From: Choanephora cucurbitarum
Taxonomy: Eukaryota; Mucoromycota; Mucoromycetes; Mucorales; Choanephoraceae
DNA length: 64,000 nucleotides
NCBI GenBank assembly: GCA_025331435.1
Contig: JAIWNI010000058.1
Location: forward strand, 1-64,000
Direction: 5' to 3'
Below, piece after piece: positions 2,238-53,887 of this stretch. The position numbers were made by a program, and so were the translations under genes. The notes below the pieces were generated by a model, which searched no databases, had not been told where the DNA came from, and saw nothing but the letters and a program-made list of their open reading frames with translations. Each line of letters begins with the position of its first letter. Position 1 is the stretch's first letter.

Positions 2238-5167
2238 ATGCTTACTTTAAGAGCTATTCAACGTAAAGGGTCTATTTGGATAACACGGTAAAACTATTAA
2301 GAACAATATATATTATCGTCAATTTCTTATAAATTCGATCTTAGTCAACAGCCTCAAGCACGTCCTATATTTACTTCGCTCAAACATGTCTTTTCAAAGT
2401 ACAATAAAGAAAATTGACTTTTTATTTTTTGGAACTCAACCTTCATTCTTGTTAGAAAACCTGTCAAAATACCTAAACCAAGACCAGTGACTAATATTCA
2501 AACACACCATGGAAGACAAAGAGAAGATTCGTTTTCTTGGATGGAGAATCTATCAGATCAAGTAAGCAAAGGACCCTTCTATTGAGTGCCGAACAAATAA
2601 ACTCAATTGTACTTATAGCACATCAACACCTATATTCAAGCTGAAAATGAGTAAGAATTAAGAATGTCATAACGTTTTGAACAAGCTAATACAAATCAAA
2701 CAGTTATACAAAGCAAATGATGCGCCAACACAAATTCCTTGAAAAGATCATATTGCAAGAAATGAAACGCAAGTTACAAGTGCCTAATGCATTACCACCA
2801 TTGAAGACAGTATCGAATGGTTACGAATACTACTCAACCACATCATCTTATGGTATGGTGTATTTAAGAAAGAAACTAGGCGAAGGCAGAGATGCACCCG
2901 AGGTAAATTATATACTATCTTTTTTTTTTTAATTGCTTTAATCAACTCGTTTTTATAGCAAGTCTTGCTAAATACTGGCTTTTTAAGATCAATGAATATG
3001 GGTGTACGCAAAGTGTTGCTTTCACCTGACCACTCTTTGTTTGCTTATAATACAGAAAGAGAAGGTATGGAGTATGGAGAACTCCATTTTAAGGATCTCA
3101 ACAACTCATCTGAGTGGGCTCAGGTAAGTAAAAGAAACTATAAAAAGAAAAGAATAGAACCAATGACATAATATTTTTATTTAGAACGAAGTTTTGGGTA
3201 ATGTCTTTAATTTCGTTTGGGCCAACAATCGAGTCGTCTATTATACTGTGCCTAATGAACAGCTCAGACCATTTCAAGTTTATGCTCATTTGATGGGAAC
3301 AGATCAGTCAGAGGATATCTTGATCTTTGAAGAACCTGATGATACTGTTTTCGTGGATATTACATGCTCTAAAGATAATGTAAGCCTTTTTTTTCTTACG
3401 TCTCTAACTGTATAAAAATAAATAGCTTCTCCAATAGAAATTCATTCACATCAATGCCAATACGCTTTCTTCATCTGAAGTTAGAGTCGTTTCAACAGAT
3501 CATGATTTCTCAAAGTCTTCAAAACCTCTGATTCGGCTAATCGAGCCTCGTGTACCAGGTATTGAGTATTATGTAGATCATCACCATGTAAATATCAATT
3601 CTTTATTTAGTCACTCTCTGGCTAATCTCCTTCATTTAATAGGATACTTTTTACATATTGACCAATGCTGATGGTGCTACTAACTTCAAACTGGTCAAGA
3701 CTTCAGACCATACACTTCAAAGAAAATATTGGCAAGATGTAGTGACCATGAAGGCTACAGAGAAAATAGAAGATGTTGATTTATTTCAAGTAAGAGACTA
3801 TATAAGATCATCAAGTTGAAACTCACTATGACCATCTAAGCGTCACATCATTGTGTATGGTAAAAGAGATGGACTACCTATGATGCTTTGCCATGATTTA
3901 GTGACCCACCAGACACATTCTGTTAAACTGCCTGAAAAGTTTTGCGTACTTTATCCTGGTACTAATTTAGACTTTCATACAGATCAAGTACGATTTTCTA
4001 TCCAATCACCTTTTATGCATGAATCTACTTTCGAATACGACATGTCTACTCAAAAATTAAGTCCAGTTCGTGTTCAACCTGTTAAAAGTAAGACTAACTT
4101 CTAGACTATCATTCAAATAACCTCATATGTTTGTATATTTCTTCAGATTTTGACAAGTCAAATTACACTTGTAGTCAAGTTCATGTTCCTTCCCATGATG
4201 GTAAAAAAGTGCCTGTGACACTTTTACACAAGAAAGAAATCAAATTAAATGGAAAGTAAGTGACCAACTAACACGAGAAACATGGTTCTGACTTCATATT
4301 AGAAACCCTGTATTGATGCGTTCTTATGGTGCTTATGGTACCTGCACTGACATTGATTTCCGCGTTGAGCAACTTCCTCTGCTGGAAAGAGGCTGGGTCA
4401 TTGCTTTACCTCATGTCAGGTAATTCAATAGAGAATAGAACAAAAAGAAAAAAAAAGGGAGAGAAAACTAAACAAGATATATAGAGGAGGAAGCGAACTG
4501 GGCCGGGATTGGTACGAAGAGGGTAAATTGAAAAACAAGATGAACAGTTTCAAGGATTTTATTGCTGTTGCTGAACATCTTGTGGATTCAAAGTTAACTT
4601 CTCCTGAACACTTGACAGCCATGGGCACTAGTGCCGGTGGTTTATTAGTAGGTAAAGACAAAGAGAATTGCTATCAAAGTCTTCAATTACACACTGACAT
4701 TCCTATAAGGGGCCATGCTGCATATGCGCCCTGATCTCTTTAAGGCGCTCCTCCTAAAGGTTCCCTTCGTAGACCCTCTCTCAGCCATGTTGAATCCTTC
4801 TTTGCCTTTAACTCAGATCGAATACCCTGAATGGGGTAACCCTACAGATGACCCTGAGGCTTACGACTTGATAGAATCTTATGCGCCCTATGACAATATC
4901 CATCCCCATCTTTTTTCTGACCATACTTCTTTCCCCTCTGTCTACATTACAGGTGGCATGAAAGATCAACGTGTTGCCTATTGGCAACCATTAAAATTGA
5001 TGGCGCGTCTTCGTCACTCCATGCCTGCTCAATATCCCTCTACTGCCTTACTCCAAATGGATTTAGACCGAGGTCATTTTAGTGGTGCTGAACAAGAGAG
5101 TCGACTATCTGATCTAGCTCAGCAAATGGCTTTTCTATTGAGTTCAAAAAAGCCAAGACCCCCATGA
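2238..5167 (+). CDS. Oligopeptidase B-like serine peptidase (S9A), possible mitochondrial leader
   Basis: A prolyl-oligopeptidase-family (S9A) peptidase of the oligopeptidase B (PtrB) type, which cuts short peptides after basic residues. I reconstruct 14 exons (2238-2287, 2345-2398, 2456-2561, 2619-2650, 2704-2902, 2959-3123, 3185-3379, 3438-3587, 3643-3789, 3841-4087, 4147-4255, 4303-4419, 4485-4651, 4710-5167). They sum to 2196 nt, exactly 731 codons plus stop. The N-terminal half is the beta-propeller (SFSWMENLSD, AENDYTKQMM). The C-terminal half is the alpha/beta-hydrolase with Ser573 in GTSAGG, Asp665 in GGMKDQRV and His702 in RGHFSG, in family order and spacing. The first exons encode a basic, Ser/Thr-bearing leader (MLTLRAIQRKGS) that looks like a mitochondrial presequence; E. 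coli PtrB lacks it and is about 45 residues shorter. The first two exons are the least certain part. Confidence 0.88.
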
Positions 5168-5340
5168 TATTCTTGCTCAAAAGGATATAATAATCATAGA
5201 AATCTTGTGCAAGTTCATTTCATAAAATAGAAAAATTCTTGAAGATGATAAATTAACCTAGTGCTGATAGCTTTGAAGTAAAATGTTAAAAAGTTTTAGA
5301 GGGCTACATGACATATATAAAATTCCTCAGATAGAACACT

Positions 5341-5428
5341 ATGAAAATGAATCACCAAACTTGAAAATGGGCCAGCCAATGAAAATAGATCATGGTTTGA
5401 AAATGGGTCGTTAATACAGAAATGTAAT
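5341..5428 (+). repeat. Left terminal inverted repeat
   Basis: Matches the reverse complement of 6672-6741, starting ATGAAAATGA and ending near AATGTAAT. It contains an internal duplicated GAAAATGGG block absent from the right arm. Confidence 0.75.
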
Positions 5429-5639
5429 GAGGATTGGTTAAAACGTCTCTTCTTTTTCTCTTCTTGGATTTCTCCATATTGTTTGACATGAATGAAGAAT
5501 ACAATTCTGACAGTGAGGCTGTACCTGTGATGATACAGTCGTATACGGGCTAGAAAGAAACTGCAGCAGTAAATGTAGCATAAAAAGAAGCTAAGAGGAA
5601 GACCAAACTTATCTCCAAGAAGCTTTTTTCTCCAGTGCA

Positions 5640-6640
5640 GTGAAGAAGGAAAGGGGATCATATATTGTCAAGAACGAAGTAAAGGTAGTCAATTTGATCA
5701 GCTCGTTACAACAGTTTGAGAATATGTCCACTAGTGGATTGGGTAAAAAGACAGGACTCTCCAAGCCAACAACTATTCGTAAAGTCAGGCAGTGGAATCA
5801 AATGACAAGCGGAATAGCTGAAACAGAGATTCTCAAATTCTATCGCAATCAAAGAAGAAAAGGGACGACCTACATCACTCAAAGATGAACATACTGTATT
5901 TGAGCTGCTGACTAATGAGCCAAAATTGATAGTTGAAGCTGTTACAGACAAACTGTCAAAAGAATGTAGAGATATACAGATCATTCTCAGATCAGTCAAT
6001 AATCACATGAAGAAGAAAGTTCGCCTAACCTACAAGTGTATCGCTTCCGGATATTGAGGCAGAAACAAGAATGAAGCTGGCTTCGACAGGAGCATGCATT
6101 GTTCATATGCTAGAACACCTTTCAGAATTGATGTTGAAGCGAAGGGAGCAAATATCAGTAGCTTGGGTGCTACTTGTAAAAGTAGCTTAATCATATTATC
6201 CAGAAAAGAAGCTGTGCTTAGTGCTAGGAATGGAAAACGAACTCAAACTGGTGAGAGACCTCAGACCCCCCTCCAAGAGGAAAGGTACCACTAGCAGTGA
6301 ATCCCTTGAATAAATAGAGTAGATTTTCGCGACAATGGATGCAACTAACACGAGCTACAGGTAGCTCGTTCTTGGCAAAGCATTCATTCCCAAGGCTGCA
6401 CTTATTGAAGATTGGGTTGGCCAACTTCTCTTTTGTTACCCTATTCTCTTTTTTCAGGCCCTATCGAAGGGTTTTGGTCCAAGCTAAAGACTATTGTAAA
6501 TAACGATCCTTCTTCTGTCAGACAGAATGAAAATTCTTCTGATCATGTTCGTAACTCATTGCTTCATATCATCAGGGAAGATTGCGATAACTGGATAGAG
6601 CTTTCCTTGACATTCTGGCAGAGATGTTTGATTGTGAAAA
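5640..6640 (+). pseudogene. Tc1-like transposase pseudogene
   Basis: Pieces of a Tc1/IS630-type transposase lie in different frames. A helix-turn-helix comes first (LGKKTGLSKPTTIRKVRQWN, about 5735-5800). A linker follows in another frame (RPTSLKDEHTVFELL, then EAVTDKLSKE, about 5865-5970) and matches the RPSKLN..H..FV.ELL region of mucoralean Tc1-like proteins. The end carries GPIEGFWSKLK (about 6460-6490), the third catalytic Glu region (usually NPIEEFWSKVK). The first and second catalytic Asp regions are not recognisable. Multiple frameshifts and stops make it inactive. Confidence 0.7.
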
Positions 6641-49244: not shown

Positions 49245-51033
49245 ATGTCTACTGCGCTAAACAATTCTTCAAATAACTCTATCCAACAAGACTCCAATCT
49301 AATTGTCAGTTGTAAGTTTGACTTGCTTATTAGAAATTAAAATCTTTATTCACTTTCTTTTATATATATGTATTTAGCAATAACTTCATATCTCAATAGC
49401 GATTCAGTCAAACACACCTTAGCTGAATACATTGCTCTAAACAGACCCATTATTTTGCAGACAATAAACTGCTTTTCTGATGTCTCAACTGAGCTTATTG
49501 ATACGTATAAAGCATGCTGCAATAACGCCAACAAAAAATTGTATGAAAATAAAGAAGAACAAGCTGCTGATTTTGTATAGTAACTCTTTTTTTTATAGTA
49601 TATTAGGATCGAATTGCAGAAAGAAATTACAAAGTCTCTTATTGAAACTGCAGGTAAACTAAAATTGTGTCCAAAATAAAACTATTTGAGAATAACATAA
49701 GATAGACAGAAGAAAAGTCACAAGGAGATGAGAAGAGCCGCAAGTCCACGCTATCTCTTCAATACGCATCAAGAATAACATCTAATAAGGTCCAGAAAGT
49801 AGCTGAGTTGTATGATTCTATTGTTCTTGAAAAGAAGTGGAAGTTAAAATCTGGAAGATATGCTGAAGACGTACTGGGAGAATTCGCTTTGAAGTGTGCT
49901 GTTGAGCAGTAAGTACTAATCCTTATACACACACGACGATGATACTTACTTCTTATCTAGTCCCAGTCAAAGCTTGATCTTAGACTTATATGATACTAAT
50001 TTGGCAGGTGTCTTCACCCAAGAAGAAGAAGAAATACTAGCAGAAGGTGGATTTCCACTTGAAAATGATCTCGACACAGCGTACAGAGAAATCTTGAATA
50101 GCCTGGTCGGTCAGTTAAGATAGTTCATTCTATATACACAGCTTATATGCTGACTTTTTGTCATCTTTTTTTTAGTCTAAATATGATGAACTGGAGGAAG
50201 TAATTGAGAAGATCGAAGCCAAAGGAAGATCTGATTTTGCAAAAAAAAAATGGTTAAAGAATGCCCTAACATCTGCGCTGTTTTTATTTACTGAAAACGA
50301 CATTCTTAATCTTCAAAATTATGAAGATGAAGATGAACTTTTATACAGTTTGTGGAGTTTTATCAAAACTTTGCTGATTGGAACAGGAGGGGAGGTTCAT
50401 GGGTAAGTGCTTTTGGTTTGAAGAGAAATAAGGTCAAACTGTATACTAACTGAAAAACACTATATTTCATAGACACGCTCAGGCGAATGAGGTGTCTACC
50501 TCAACCAATGAAGGAAGAAGCATTGGAGGCATTATGCCAATCAGACGAAAGCAGTCATGCGAAATACCAGACATGAGCTTTCAATACCTAAATCATCATC
50601 TCGGCTGTTTGGAGATTGGTGCTCAATCTGGAGAGTACGAAACCAAGACTCTCCAAGAAGCTTACTTCAAATGCCCATTGATGCTGAAGAACCAAGCTTC
50701 AGCCCTCAGCAGTAACATTAAGCAAGTTGGCATAGTCATTGATTGTAAGTATCCATACTAAAAAATTTGATAAACATTAACTTATACTCTTTAACAAGGC
50801 AACAACTTGCAAGCAATGACTTTGGAAAAGGCAAAAGGCTCTTTATTTGTAGTCAAGCGTTCAACACGCTTGACTTTCCCTATCGCATTGAATGAATTCT
50901 CCAACAGAATCATTCCTATAATGCACTTAATGCTGAACATTCGAAGTGTTCTTGCTGAAAGCATTGCAAGCATCAAAAGTATGCAAAGACAAGTACCCGT
51001 GTACTCTTTGGGCAAGAGAAAATCTTGCCAATA
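49245..51033 (+). CDS. Mucoralean hypothetical protein family, function unknown
   Basis: Multi-exon gene starting MSTALNNSSNNSIQQ. Successive exons can be joined in frame: SITSYLNSDSVKHTLAEYIA, KEITKSLIETAG, then a well-conserved-looking block KKWKLKSGRYAEDVLGEFA with HPSQSLILDLYDTN and GVFTQEEEEILAEGG. Later exons give LYSLWSFIKTLLIGTGGEVHG and PIRRKQSCEIPDMSFQYLNH, ending VPVYSLGKRKSCQ. The KW-LxSGR-VEDVL / HxSxSLILD / GVFT-EE pattern is one I associate with large families of uncharacterised proteins in Mucoromycota. No catalytic motif or transmembrane segment seen. One intron (about 50107) needs a weak GTCGGT donor. It sits next to the transposon cluster, so it may be a spreading or transposon-associated family. 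Confidence 0.6.
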
Positions 51034-51417
51034 AAATCGTATAGATATATATTATTATTCCTAATCACTTTTTCCAAACCATTTAATTCTTTATTCGTCT
51101 GTTTAATTCTTATTCCTTTAATATTCTTGCTTTATGTATAGAGTATGTGTTTGTAAGGGTTAAAGCAAGATGCTTACTGCTTAATTATCCACGACAATGT
51201 TCATGTAAATAGTGAACAGATCCCGTTTGTCGGCTAGCTATAGGCAATATATACTTTAGCAAGAAATAAACAGGATAGTTTTAAATCAACTAGAGCTGCT
51301 TTGCGTGATATTGATATAATTGCTTGTAAAGTAAAACTATATGAATGAGATGCTTGTCTGACTTGGTTCATTGCGTTGCTGAAAAAAAAAACGAATGCCT
51401 AAAATAATATAACCCAC
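51034..51417. other. Spacer, nothing recognised
   Basis: 3' flank of the hypothetical gene with no coding signal. It leads into the stem-loop array. Confidence 0.5.
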
Positions 51418-51720
51418 AAAGTTTCTTTATACAACTTACCTTAAAAATCGGTTGTATAAAGAGCCACTTCTATAACTTACCTTACAAATCGGTTATAGAA
51501 GGACGAGAATGAACATCTTGGAGATGGAGGAACACATCAAGAAGCTTACCCTAAGTTCGGCTAATTGAAAGTGACCCTCACGAAAAGTTTCTTTATACAA
51601 CTTACCTTAAAATCGGTTGTATAAAGAGCCACTTCTATAACTTACCTTACAAATCGGTTATAGAAGGGCGAGAATGAAAAGTTAGGTATAACTGAGTATC
51701 CTACCTCAGCATCGGTACTT
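51418..51720. repeat. Array of stem-loops with conserved loops
   Basis: Two direct copies of a 95-96 nt unit (51418-51513 and 51584-51678, offset 166). Each has two perfect hairpins. Stem 1 is CTTTATACAAC (51425-51435 with 51451-51461) and stem 2 is CTTCTATAAC (51467-51476 with 51492-51501). Both enclose a 15-nt loop TTACCTTAnAAATCG (14 nt in copy 2 hairpin 1). A fifth hairpin in the spacer (51537-51568, loop TTACCCTAAGTTCG) and a sixth after copy 2 (about 51693-51720, loop CTACCTCAGCATCG) share the loop consensus YTACCYYANNNTCG but have different stems. Base changes between stems are compensatory. Strand and function are unknown. It lies between the 3' ends of convergent genes. Confidence 0.85.
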
Positions 51721-51979
51721 GAAGCTCTCTTCTGTTCAAAAAAGCTGACTTCCTTTTTTTTTGTACTGCAACTTGGTTACAATGATCTGTTCCTTTTTTC
51801 CACCGTACTATCTATGGTTCACACAACTTCGCAGGAAATTCTCATCCAAACAAACAAGAAAAAACTCAAGCTCAAACTGAAGTGTACTTAAAAAAAAGAA
51901 TTATTTCTTGAATTTCTATAGCAGAGGAATTGGATTTTTCTTGGAAAACTAGAAAAGAGAAAATGCCAAGTTTATTAAC

Positions 51980-53887
51980 TTAATCCCAATATTTGATTAG
52001 ACCATCCCAACTACAGGTAGCCACTTTAGATGTTTCATGAGGATTCCATTCAGCACACATAACCACTCTGTCATGCACCTTGAGTTTCTTGAGGATCTTA
52101 CAGGTCTTCCAGTCCCAGAACCAAACATTACCATTTGAGTCACCACTTGTCATGAATCGACCATCAGGTGAAAAGCTAGGTTTACAAGCATAACCAGCAA
52201 TCAAATGACCAGCAAAACGCTTCTTTCTATTTAATCTAAATCTATCACCAGCACCATAAATCAAGATCTGGTTATCCAAAGATTGACAAGCCAGCCATTT
52301 CTCTATTTTGTAGAAAACAATTGTAAGCTACCTCTGCTTCCAATACAATAAGGATACTTTACTGTTAGGTGACAACGTCACTGCAGGAATAGAATACATG
52401 TCTGGTTCAGCAATGTATTTGATGACGACAGGAATATCATATTCCCAAGCACGCATTGTCTTATCGTCTGAGGTGGTAACAAAACGACGGTTTTCATCTA
52501 CAAAAGTAATTGTGTTCACAGCACCCAAGTGTTGATCGTATTCTTGTGTGATCTCGCCTGTGTTGATGTCGAATTGAATGATCTTCTTGTCAGAATAACC
52601 TGCCAAAAAGATGTTTTGTTTGTCATGGTCAGGGTTGAATGTAGCACAATAAGGCAATTTGCCAGTGGAGAAGGTGCGAATACATTGACCTGTTTCTGTA
52701 TCCCATAGCTTGATGTTTCTGTCATAACTCACACTCAAGAACCGTGTACCATCATTGTTGAATGTAACGTCTCTGACTGCTTTATCATGACCATGATAAG
52801 AACGCAAAAGGCTTCTATCATGGTATACATCCCAAATCTAACACACAGACACATCAGATGATTGCCCACCCTTCTTTTTTTTTTTGACTTACCTTGATCT
52901 GGTTATCCATACCACCACTAAGCAAGAGATGTGCTGATTTAGGAAAGAATTTGATGCTTGATACACCCTTTTCATGACCTTCCCATGTATGAATCAGTTT
53001 TTTGGGAATAAAGCAATCTTGAGATCCAGGTTCTCCAAACAGATTAACATCCACATCTTGAGGCACAGCCATATATGTACGTCCCAGATAATCACGCTCT
53101 GAAGCACCATGGAATATAGTTGTCTCTGTTCCTGTATTTCTAGCAATATTTCTGACCGAGAATTCAGCTGGTTTCTCAACTTCCTTGGTCTCTTCCTCCA
53201 CCTTCTCCTCCTGTGCTTCTTCTTGATCATCTTTCGCCAAGCCTGTAGGAACACCTACATTGTCGTTCTCGTAACCAGCCCAGGGACCTTTATAGGCATC
53301 TGGACCCTCCACTTGATCTAATTTTCCTTTGCCGTATCGCTTTTTCTTCAAGTCCTTGTTGGGTCTTAGGTCTTTTCGAACACGATCAAAGATAGATGCG
53401 CCTTCTAATTCGGTTGCAATATTCAGGTTACCTACATAACCTGTGCCCATCAAGCCTTGGCCTGTCTGTCCAGCCAAATTGGTGTTGGCACTCAAAGAAG
53501 GATCGCGTGCATAACCATATGTTTCGAAAGTACGATGTTGTGTTCTAAAGTCGGCTTCAGAGATGGCCTGTTGCTCTACATGGCCGTTGATGACGTTTTG
53601 TGTTGCAAGGTGTTGCTCAACAAAGGGGTTGGTAGGTCCTAAGACGGGTCTGTTCATATCGTCATAAGTCACATTGACAGTAAGTTCAGTAGCTGTGGGT
53701 GCGGTATATAACGCGCCTGATGTATGATCCTATGATTCATCAATACTCTTCAAGATGCAAAGCTTTCCCTCTAGCTACTCACATGAAAACCTGTATCAGG
53801 TGCTGTGTTTATCTTTGTTAAAGCTGAATTCGTGACTTGAACGTTATCTTCTTCATCACTAGAACCATAATTATTGACTAAATCCAT
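51980..53887 (-). CDS. PRP17: Pre-mRNA splicing factor Prp17/Cdc40 (WD40)
   Basis: Second-step splicing factor that binds the spliceosome. Starts at 53887 with [15 protein letters not shown]. The N-terminal region has the Prp17-specific NPTNPF-type segment ([19 protein letters not shown]), the [11 protein letters not shown] block and [20 protein letters not shown]. An acidic [20 protein letters not shown] stretch precedes a seven-bladed WD40 propeller: [67 protein letters not shown] and [11 protein letters not shown] at the end. Four introns are visible, near 53780-53725, 52895-52840, 52330-52285 and others with GT-AG ends. The C-terminus at the last WD blade is normal for the family. Confidence 0.94.

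Follow-up and report, generated by a model that had tools for sequence, protein, structure and literature searches.

A small array of duplicated perfect hairpins between two convergent genes of Choanephora cucurbitarum

The window analysed here, a stretch of 64,000 nucleotides from Choanephora cucurbitarum, is part of contig C312 (187,978 bases) in a genome of 33.4 Mb and 357 contigs, and it carries an array of hairpins where two convergent genes leave about 950 nt between them. The upstream gene is located on the plus strand and has several exons, which were recognised by eye from the open frames; its last frame stops at 51034, an AATAAA at 51030 overlaps its stop codon, and two of its exons gave no match in Pfam. 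The downstream gene is located on the minus strand, ends at 51980 and encodes a PRP17-like WD40 protein, which shows 72–77% identity to its nine best matches, 50% to Acaulospora colombiana (over 96% of the query) and 50% to Absidia cylindrospora (over 59% of the query). Its AATAAA begins at 51976, 3 nt after the stop codon, so the mRNA of this gene probably ends before the array. Judged from AATAAA alone, which lies at or 3 nt after each stop codon, the array is probably outside both neighbouring mRNAs. A second minus-strand AATAAA is present at 51095, beyond the array, and a longer minus-strand transcript could possibly run past the array to this site. Relatives of the upstream gene are found on C279 and C246 (68–70% identity), and their similarity to the window stops before the array; a link between the array and this gene family was rejected, since the three closest of the eight other matches (one on C279, two on C246) are without the array. 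The genome contains no further match to the 395 nt that precede the array. An ORF for a DDE transposase (PF13358, 45944–47110) and a fragment of a Helitron-like N-terminal domain (PF14214, 48071–48355) are situated a few kb upstream of it.

The array consists of two near-identical units in direct orientation, 165–166 nt apart (51418–51678), and here the sequence-only reading, which had described direct copies of 96 and 95 nt with two perfect hairpins each, proved right. On the plus strand, copy 1 occupies 51418–51513 (96 nt, H1 and H2) and copy 2 occupies 51584–51678 (95 nt, H4 and H5), the latter differing from the former by one substitution and by lacking one A of the first loop. H1 (51424–51462) has a perfect stem of 12 bp and a loop of 15 nt, and H2 (51467–51501) has a perfect stem of 10 bp and a loop of 15 nt. 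H4 (51590–51627), the copy of H1, has a 12-bp stem and a 14-nt loop, while H5 (51632–51666), the copy of H2, has a perfect 10-bp stem and a 15-nt loop, and three extra pairs are possible in it past one bulged base (51628–51669). The complementarity of the nearby inverted arms is perfect in all four. The four perfect hairpins are therefore two hairpins, H1 and H2, each doubled by one duplication. When perfect hairpins with a stem of at least 10 bp and a loop of 8–20 nt are counted, six are found in the 64 kb, four of them being H1, H2, H4 and H5 and the remaining two consisting mostly of A/T runs; 12 dinucleotide shuffles of the window contain 0–2 each (mean 1.0), with a 12-bp stem in one of the 12, and the window minus the array has two against 1.0 expected. 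The loop pattern YTACCYYANNNTCG, by which the sequence-only reading had described the loops, has three matches in the window, all inside this region, where 0.10 would be expected; the pattern was fitted to these same sequences, and one of its three matches is H6.

The same reading had spoken of six stem-loops with one loop, two of them weaker hairpins sharing the loop and not the stems. The two duplicated hairpins stand, H3 is marginal, and H6 turned out to come from the head of a repeat unrelated to them. The linker that separates the units holds H3 (51532–51573, plus strand), a weak hairpin whose loop is similar. At a fixed register seven of its nine pairs form (P 0.019), whereas under a freer pairing test its score level is attained by 10.5% of random places. 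Shuffles folding as well as H3 number 11 of 200 for plus-strand RNA, 9 of 200 for plus-strand DNA and 56 of 200 for minus-strand RNA (a P of 0.28). The similarity of the linker to the H1/H2 loop has a p of 0.07, with 133 of 1812 window stretches of 70 nt scoring as high, and of the ACTTACC in the other hairpins only CTTACC is retained. H3 may thus be a third, decayed member of the array, or it may be no member at all.

H6 (51693–51720) belongs to a dispersed repeat about 320 nt long: it is included in a remnant of the 5′ head of that repeat, at about 51682–51782 on the plus strand. The remnant is about 100 nt long; its best long alignment, 51678–51782, shows 72% identity to C305, with a core at 51696–51735 of 90%. 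This 40-nt core matches C324 at 90%, and a search onward from C324 led to C305 and C289. A 19-base head pattern gave 24 matches in the genome with up to three mismatches, against three in a reversed control. Four of the 24 had no locus to examine, and of the 20 loci examined, the window's included, 16 have a common head as judged by eye, 12 of these with a clear common 5′ start; L025, L027, L034 and L035, which show no common head by eye, were omitted from the head comparisons. Several pairs of repeat copies align over about 320 nt, and diverged subfamilies are present; C179:803–1125 is one of the copies. With one repeat copy as query, at least 25 places match in part or whole at 70–100% identity, and the window remnant is not among them. 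An alignment of ten loci and the window contains a TATA-like stretch and an AATAAA inside, and on these two signals the repeat may possibly be a solo LTR or an LTR-like family. Judged by eye, two of the head copies have tandem repeats beside them (roughly 180 nt and roughly 352 nt), at L002 ~900–1370 (C324) and, on C305, at L012 ~1650–2100 and L015 ~4430–5800. Downstream of the C324 head, L007:3494–4618 has ORFs resembling a tyrosine recombinase by eye, although its stop-free frame 3779–4615 gave no match in Pfam, and the opposite strand has a DDE_3 transposase ORF at 4490–5245.

Of 15 other repeat copies, only one has all six pairs of the H6 stem, and the folding of H6 is at chance, with 24 of 200 shuffles as good for plus-strand RNA, 49 of 200 for minus-strand RNA and 50 of 200 for DNA. 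Since it comes from the head of a dispersed repeat and has a stem that is rarely complete and folds at chance, H6 does not belong to the array, and a hairpin family of six members was rejected. The idea that H1–H5 are tandem heads of the dispersed repeat was rejected as well: in alignments to 15 repeat heads, from which the window's own copy was excluded, 195 of 300 shuffles scored as high as H1 and 89 of 300 as high as H2, the likeness of H3 was weak (25 of 300), and H6 was reached by none of 300.

The loops of H1 and H2 are identical in 14 of 15 bases, and their stems agree in seven of ten pairs. The other three pairs, the fourth, seventh and tenth counted from the loop, have changed on both sides each time (C-G/T-A, A-T/C-G and T-A/C-G), so that every difference is compensated. 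The divergence of the loop (1 of 15) and of the stems (6 of 20) does not differ significantly (Fisher p 0.20). In an alignment of H1–H5, 86.7% of the cells are standard pairs against 35–53% with slid partners, a level reached by none of 500 shuffles; double changes occur in seven of 12 pairs, a number that one of 500 shuffles reaches, and the covariation score is matched by none of 500, whereas the number of further pair types is at chance level, being reached by 401 of 500 shuffles. Such controls make the evidence look stronger than it is, because the rows represent no more than three independent hairpins, of which one is marginal, and the structure was derived from the same hairpins. On the plus strand none of 200 shuffles folds as well as H1, H2, H4 or H5, as RNA and DNA alike, and for minus-strand RNA H1 is reached by none of 200 and H2 by one of 200. 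The z scores of the RNA fold on plus and minus strands are −5.5 and −4.8 for H1, −4.9 and −3.6 for H2, and −1.75 and −0.5 for H3, while the whole region as RNA has a z of −5.3 on the plus strand and −5.6 on the minus strand. The paired changes in the stems, which had been taken as the mark of selection on base pairing, are thus present; in so few copies they do not prove selection, because template switching between the arms can yield the same pattern in one step (PMC8794818).

Searches for other copies found the array at one locus. A DNA search of the genome with 351 nt of the array found only the array itself and the repeat head. The 20-base loop pattern, with up to three mismatches, has eight matches in the genome (three of them the array) against ten in the reversed control, and of the loop patterns TTACCYTANNNTCG has 21 matches there, with 45 in its control, and TTACCYTANNNNTCG has 15, with 38 in its control; further variants of the loop pattern gave no site in the genome beyond the array, H6 and C303. 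Stems were scored at 30 of the 31 non-array loci with a loop motif (all but L061; identical or misplaced matches were skipped in the scoring), and at these 30 the flanking stems are at chance level: three reach the score that 10.5% of random places reach, and the best one, on C303, has a score reached by 4.6% of random places, with 1.4 such loci expected and one seen. This place, C303:383404, looked promising by eye as a distant copy, and it was rejected because its stem score is the chance best of 30; its fold moreover employs another inner stem and is equalled by 8 of 200 shuffles. The exact 20-base loop pattern has no match in viral contigs and none in a collection of prokaryote genomes. 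Rfam gave nothing at gathering score in the window and nothing credible at E values up to 10 around the array, so that its families were rejected as the identity of the array, and no tRNA was found. In the portions of the literature available to us on fungal intergenic hairpin arrays, stem-loop ncRNAs and LTR retrotransposons of Mucoromycota, and U1 decoy hairpins, nothing relevant was found.

Perfect hairpins are weakly in excess elsewhere in the genome as well: 13 distinct ones were counted in 243 kb of other loci against four in one mononucleotide shuffle, a count with overlapping loci included and a crude control, from which 18 loci overlapping the window's place on C312 were omitted, and three of the 13 are in one cluster and two are mostly A/T runs. 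Long perfect hairpins were observed at L035 (14 bp, 8-nt loop) and L072 (13 bp, 17-nt loop), and L015 has three perfect hairpins of 10–12 bp with related arms.

As the sequence-only reading had remarked, the loops resemble the 5′ end of U1 snRNA. Two U1 genes were found in the genome, both beginning with ATACTTACCTGG, and the eight bases ACTTACCT in the four array loops equal the 5′ part of both; ACTTACCT occurs six times on the plus strand of the 64 kb, four times in the array and twice elsewhere. In U1 snRNA (RF00003) these bases are at the 5′ end, whereas in the array they are partly in the loop and partly in the stem, which holds the AC of ACTTACC and likewise the end of the minus-strand donor. 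No further similarity to U1 was found, and no Rfam match to U1 at the locus: when 51400–51580 was aligned on both strands with the two U1 genes and their upstream DNA, the result was at chance, with 212, 260, 362 and 306 of 400 shuffles as high. The two U1 genes themselves, L082 (C223:116709–116870) and L083 (C68:94270–94430), are diverged, and both have a common GTATAAAAAGGC stretch that begins about 38–39 nt before the start, as counted by hand. The U1 genes have a TATA stretch of 12 bases, which the plus strand of the window matches four times with two mismatches, and the best of these matches are the arms of H1 and H4. With the alignment at chance and the TATA matches equal to these arms, a U1 pseudogene or a U1-type promoter was rejected, and we regard the likeness between the loop and the U1 5′ end as a coincidence.

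The explanation that we prefer, at a confidence a little short of even, is a local duplication whose arms have been held complementary by template switching, for which no function is needed. The start would have been a perfect palindrome around a 15-nt spacer, duplicated beside itself to give H1 and H2. This pair was later duplicated in its turn, about 95 nt being copied to a place 165–166 nt away, a step which the near identity of the units shows. A polymerase that switches template between the arms could rewrite one arm from the other, and in this way the arms would drift and yet stay complementary. One of the three compensated changes, from A-T to C-G, has no G-U intermediate and would fit such a one-step copy of an arm. 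According to PMC8794818, template switching can create compensatory changes in one step; of the 9,931 compensatory changes counted there, only 525 were both informative on the mechanism and consistent with it, 94.7% being isolated changes. In yeast, template switching is reported to homogenise the arms of inverted repeats (PMC8604942). Like the template-switched quasi-palindromes in PMC8794818, the array has perfect short arms, an unpaired spacer and compensated differences between copies. It differs from them in that its spacer of 15 nt is beyond the limit of 8 bp between source and target used in that search, and in that two hairpins with nearly the same loop stand side by side and were then duplicated. 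PMC8794818 also states that compensatory changes accompanied by changes in the loop are depleted in real RNAs. For this neutral explanation we count the single locus, the chance-level stems elsewhere, the position in the gap, the different neighbourhood of the closest relatives of the upstream gene and the weak excess of hairpins in other loci; against it we count the small informative share and the short distance limit in PMC8794818, the well-kept loop and H3, which may carry the same loop on a third stem. A known copying error can account for the hairpins about as well as an unknown RNA can.

Such an RNA would be a lineage-specific structured RNA, or a binding site on RNA or single-stranded DNA, in which a protein or an RNA would read the plus-strand loop UUACCYUANNN(N)UCG on stems free to vary, with copies that raise avidity. 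It is favoured by the compensated pairs, three between H1 and H2 and others to H3, and by four of five measures reached by 0–1 of 500 shuffles, and the plus strand folds better than the minus strand for H1, H2 and H3, with the region as a whole well below its shuffles; the minus strand as a whole, however, folds equally, the hairpins are at most three independent ones from which the structure itself was taken, and the further pair types are at chance. Moreover, no second locus was found in the genome, no Rfam match and no tRNA, the scans of the genome, viral contigs and prokaryote genomes gave no homologue, and no promoter was found, the best matches to the U1 TATA stretch being hairpin arms. 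Because the loop is well preserved and there may be a third copy, we keep a lineage-specific RNA element as a less probable alternative. Structured RNAs with an invariant loop and a covarying stem are well known, the histone 3′ stem-loop and the iron-responsive element being examples, and between H1 and H2 the array likewise shows a kept loop and stem changes that stay paired. Those elements belong to known transcripts and are found again across many genes or species, whereas the array was found at one locus and outside the neighbouring mRNAs as far as AATAAA tells.

The array could also be a relict or a recent arrival of a mobile element, with hairpins of a terminus or a recombination site and its only copy found here, which we think unlikely. 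The DDE transposase ORF and the Helitron fragment are nearby, and no more than about 5 nt separate the start of the dispersed repeat head from the second unit. Against these stand the single locus in the genome, where a mobile hairpin repeat, as once proposed, should have several copies, the lack of likeness of H1 and H2 to the repeat head, and the absence of the exact loop pattern from the viral contigs and prokaryote genomes scanned. The proposal is thus unsupported for H1–H5. It is improbable, too, that the array is an undescribed fungal hairpin RNA, present at one locus in this species and made of tandem stem-loops with freely varying stems, whose fixed loop a dedicated protein or base pairing would read. 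Site-specific recombination sites, whose usual pattern is fixed arms and a varying core, were set aside, since in the array the arms vary and the core is fixed. That the loops are splice-site decoys, which would imitate the 5′ end of U1 or act as cryptic minus-strand donors and perhaps regulate the PRP17-like gene, is very improbable: the concentration of ACTTACCT in the array and a splicing-factor gene as its downstream neighbour on the minus strand favour the idea, but through the duplication of H1 to H4 and of H2 to H5 the four copies amount to one motif kept once, and nothing beyond the 8-nt match was found.

The array is real but small, comprising two palindromes duplicated once, one doubtful third hairpin and one wrong member, and it needs no new kind of system. 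It also holds two cautions. With compensated hairpins at one locus in one genome, a selected RNA is indistinguishable from the copying of arms during replication, and of six proposed family members, one turned out to be the head of a dispersed repeat unrelated to the rest. If relatives bore the same loop at the same place, the array would be a new fungal RNA element.
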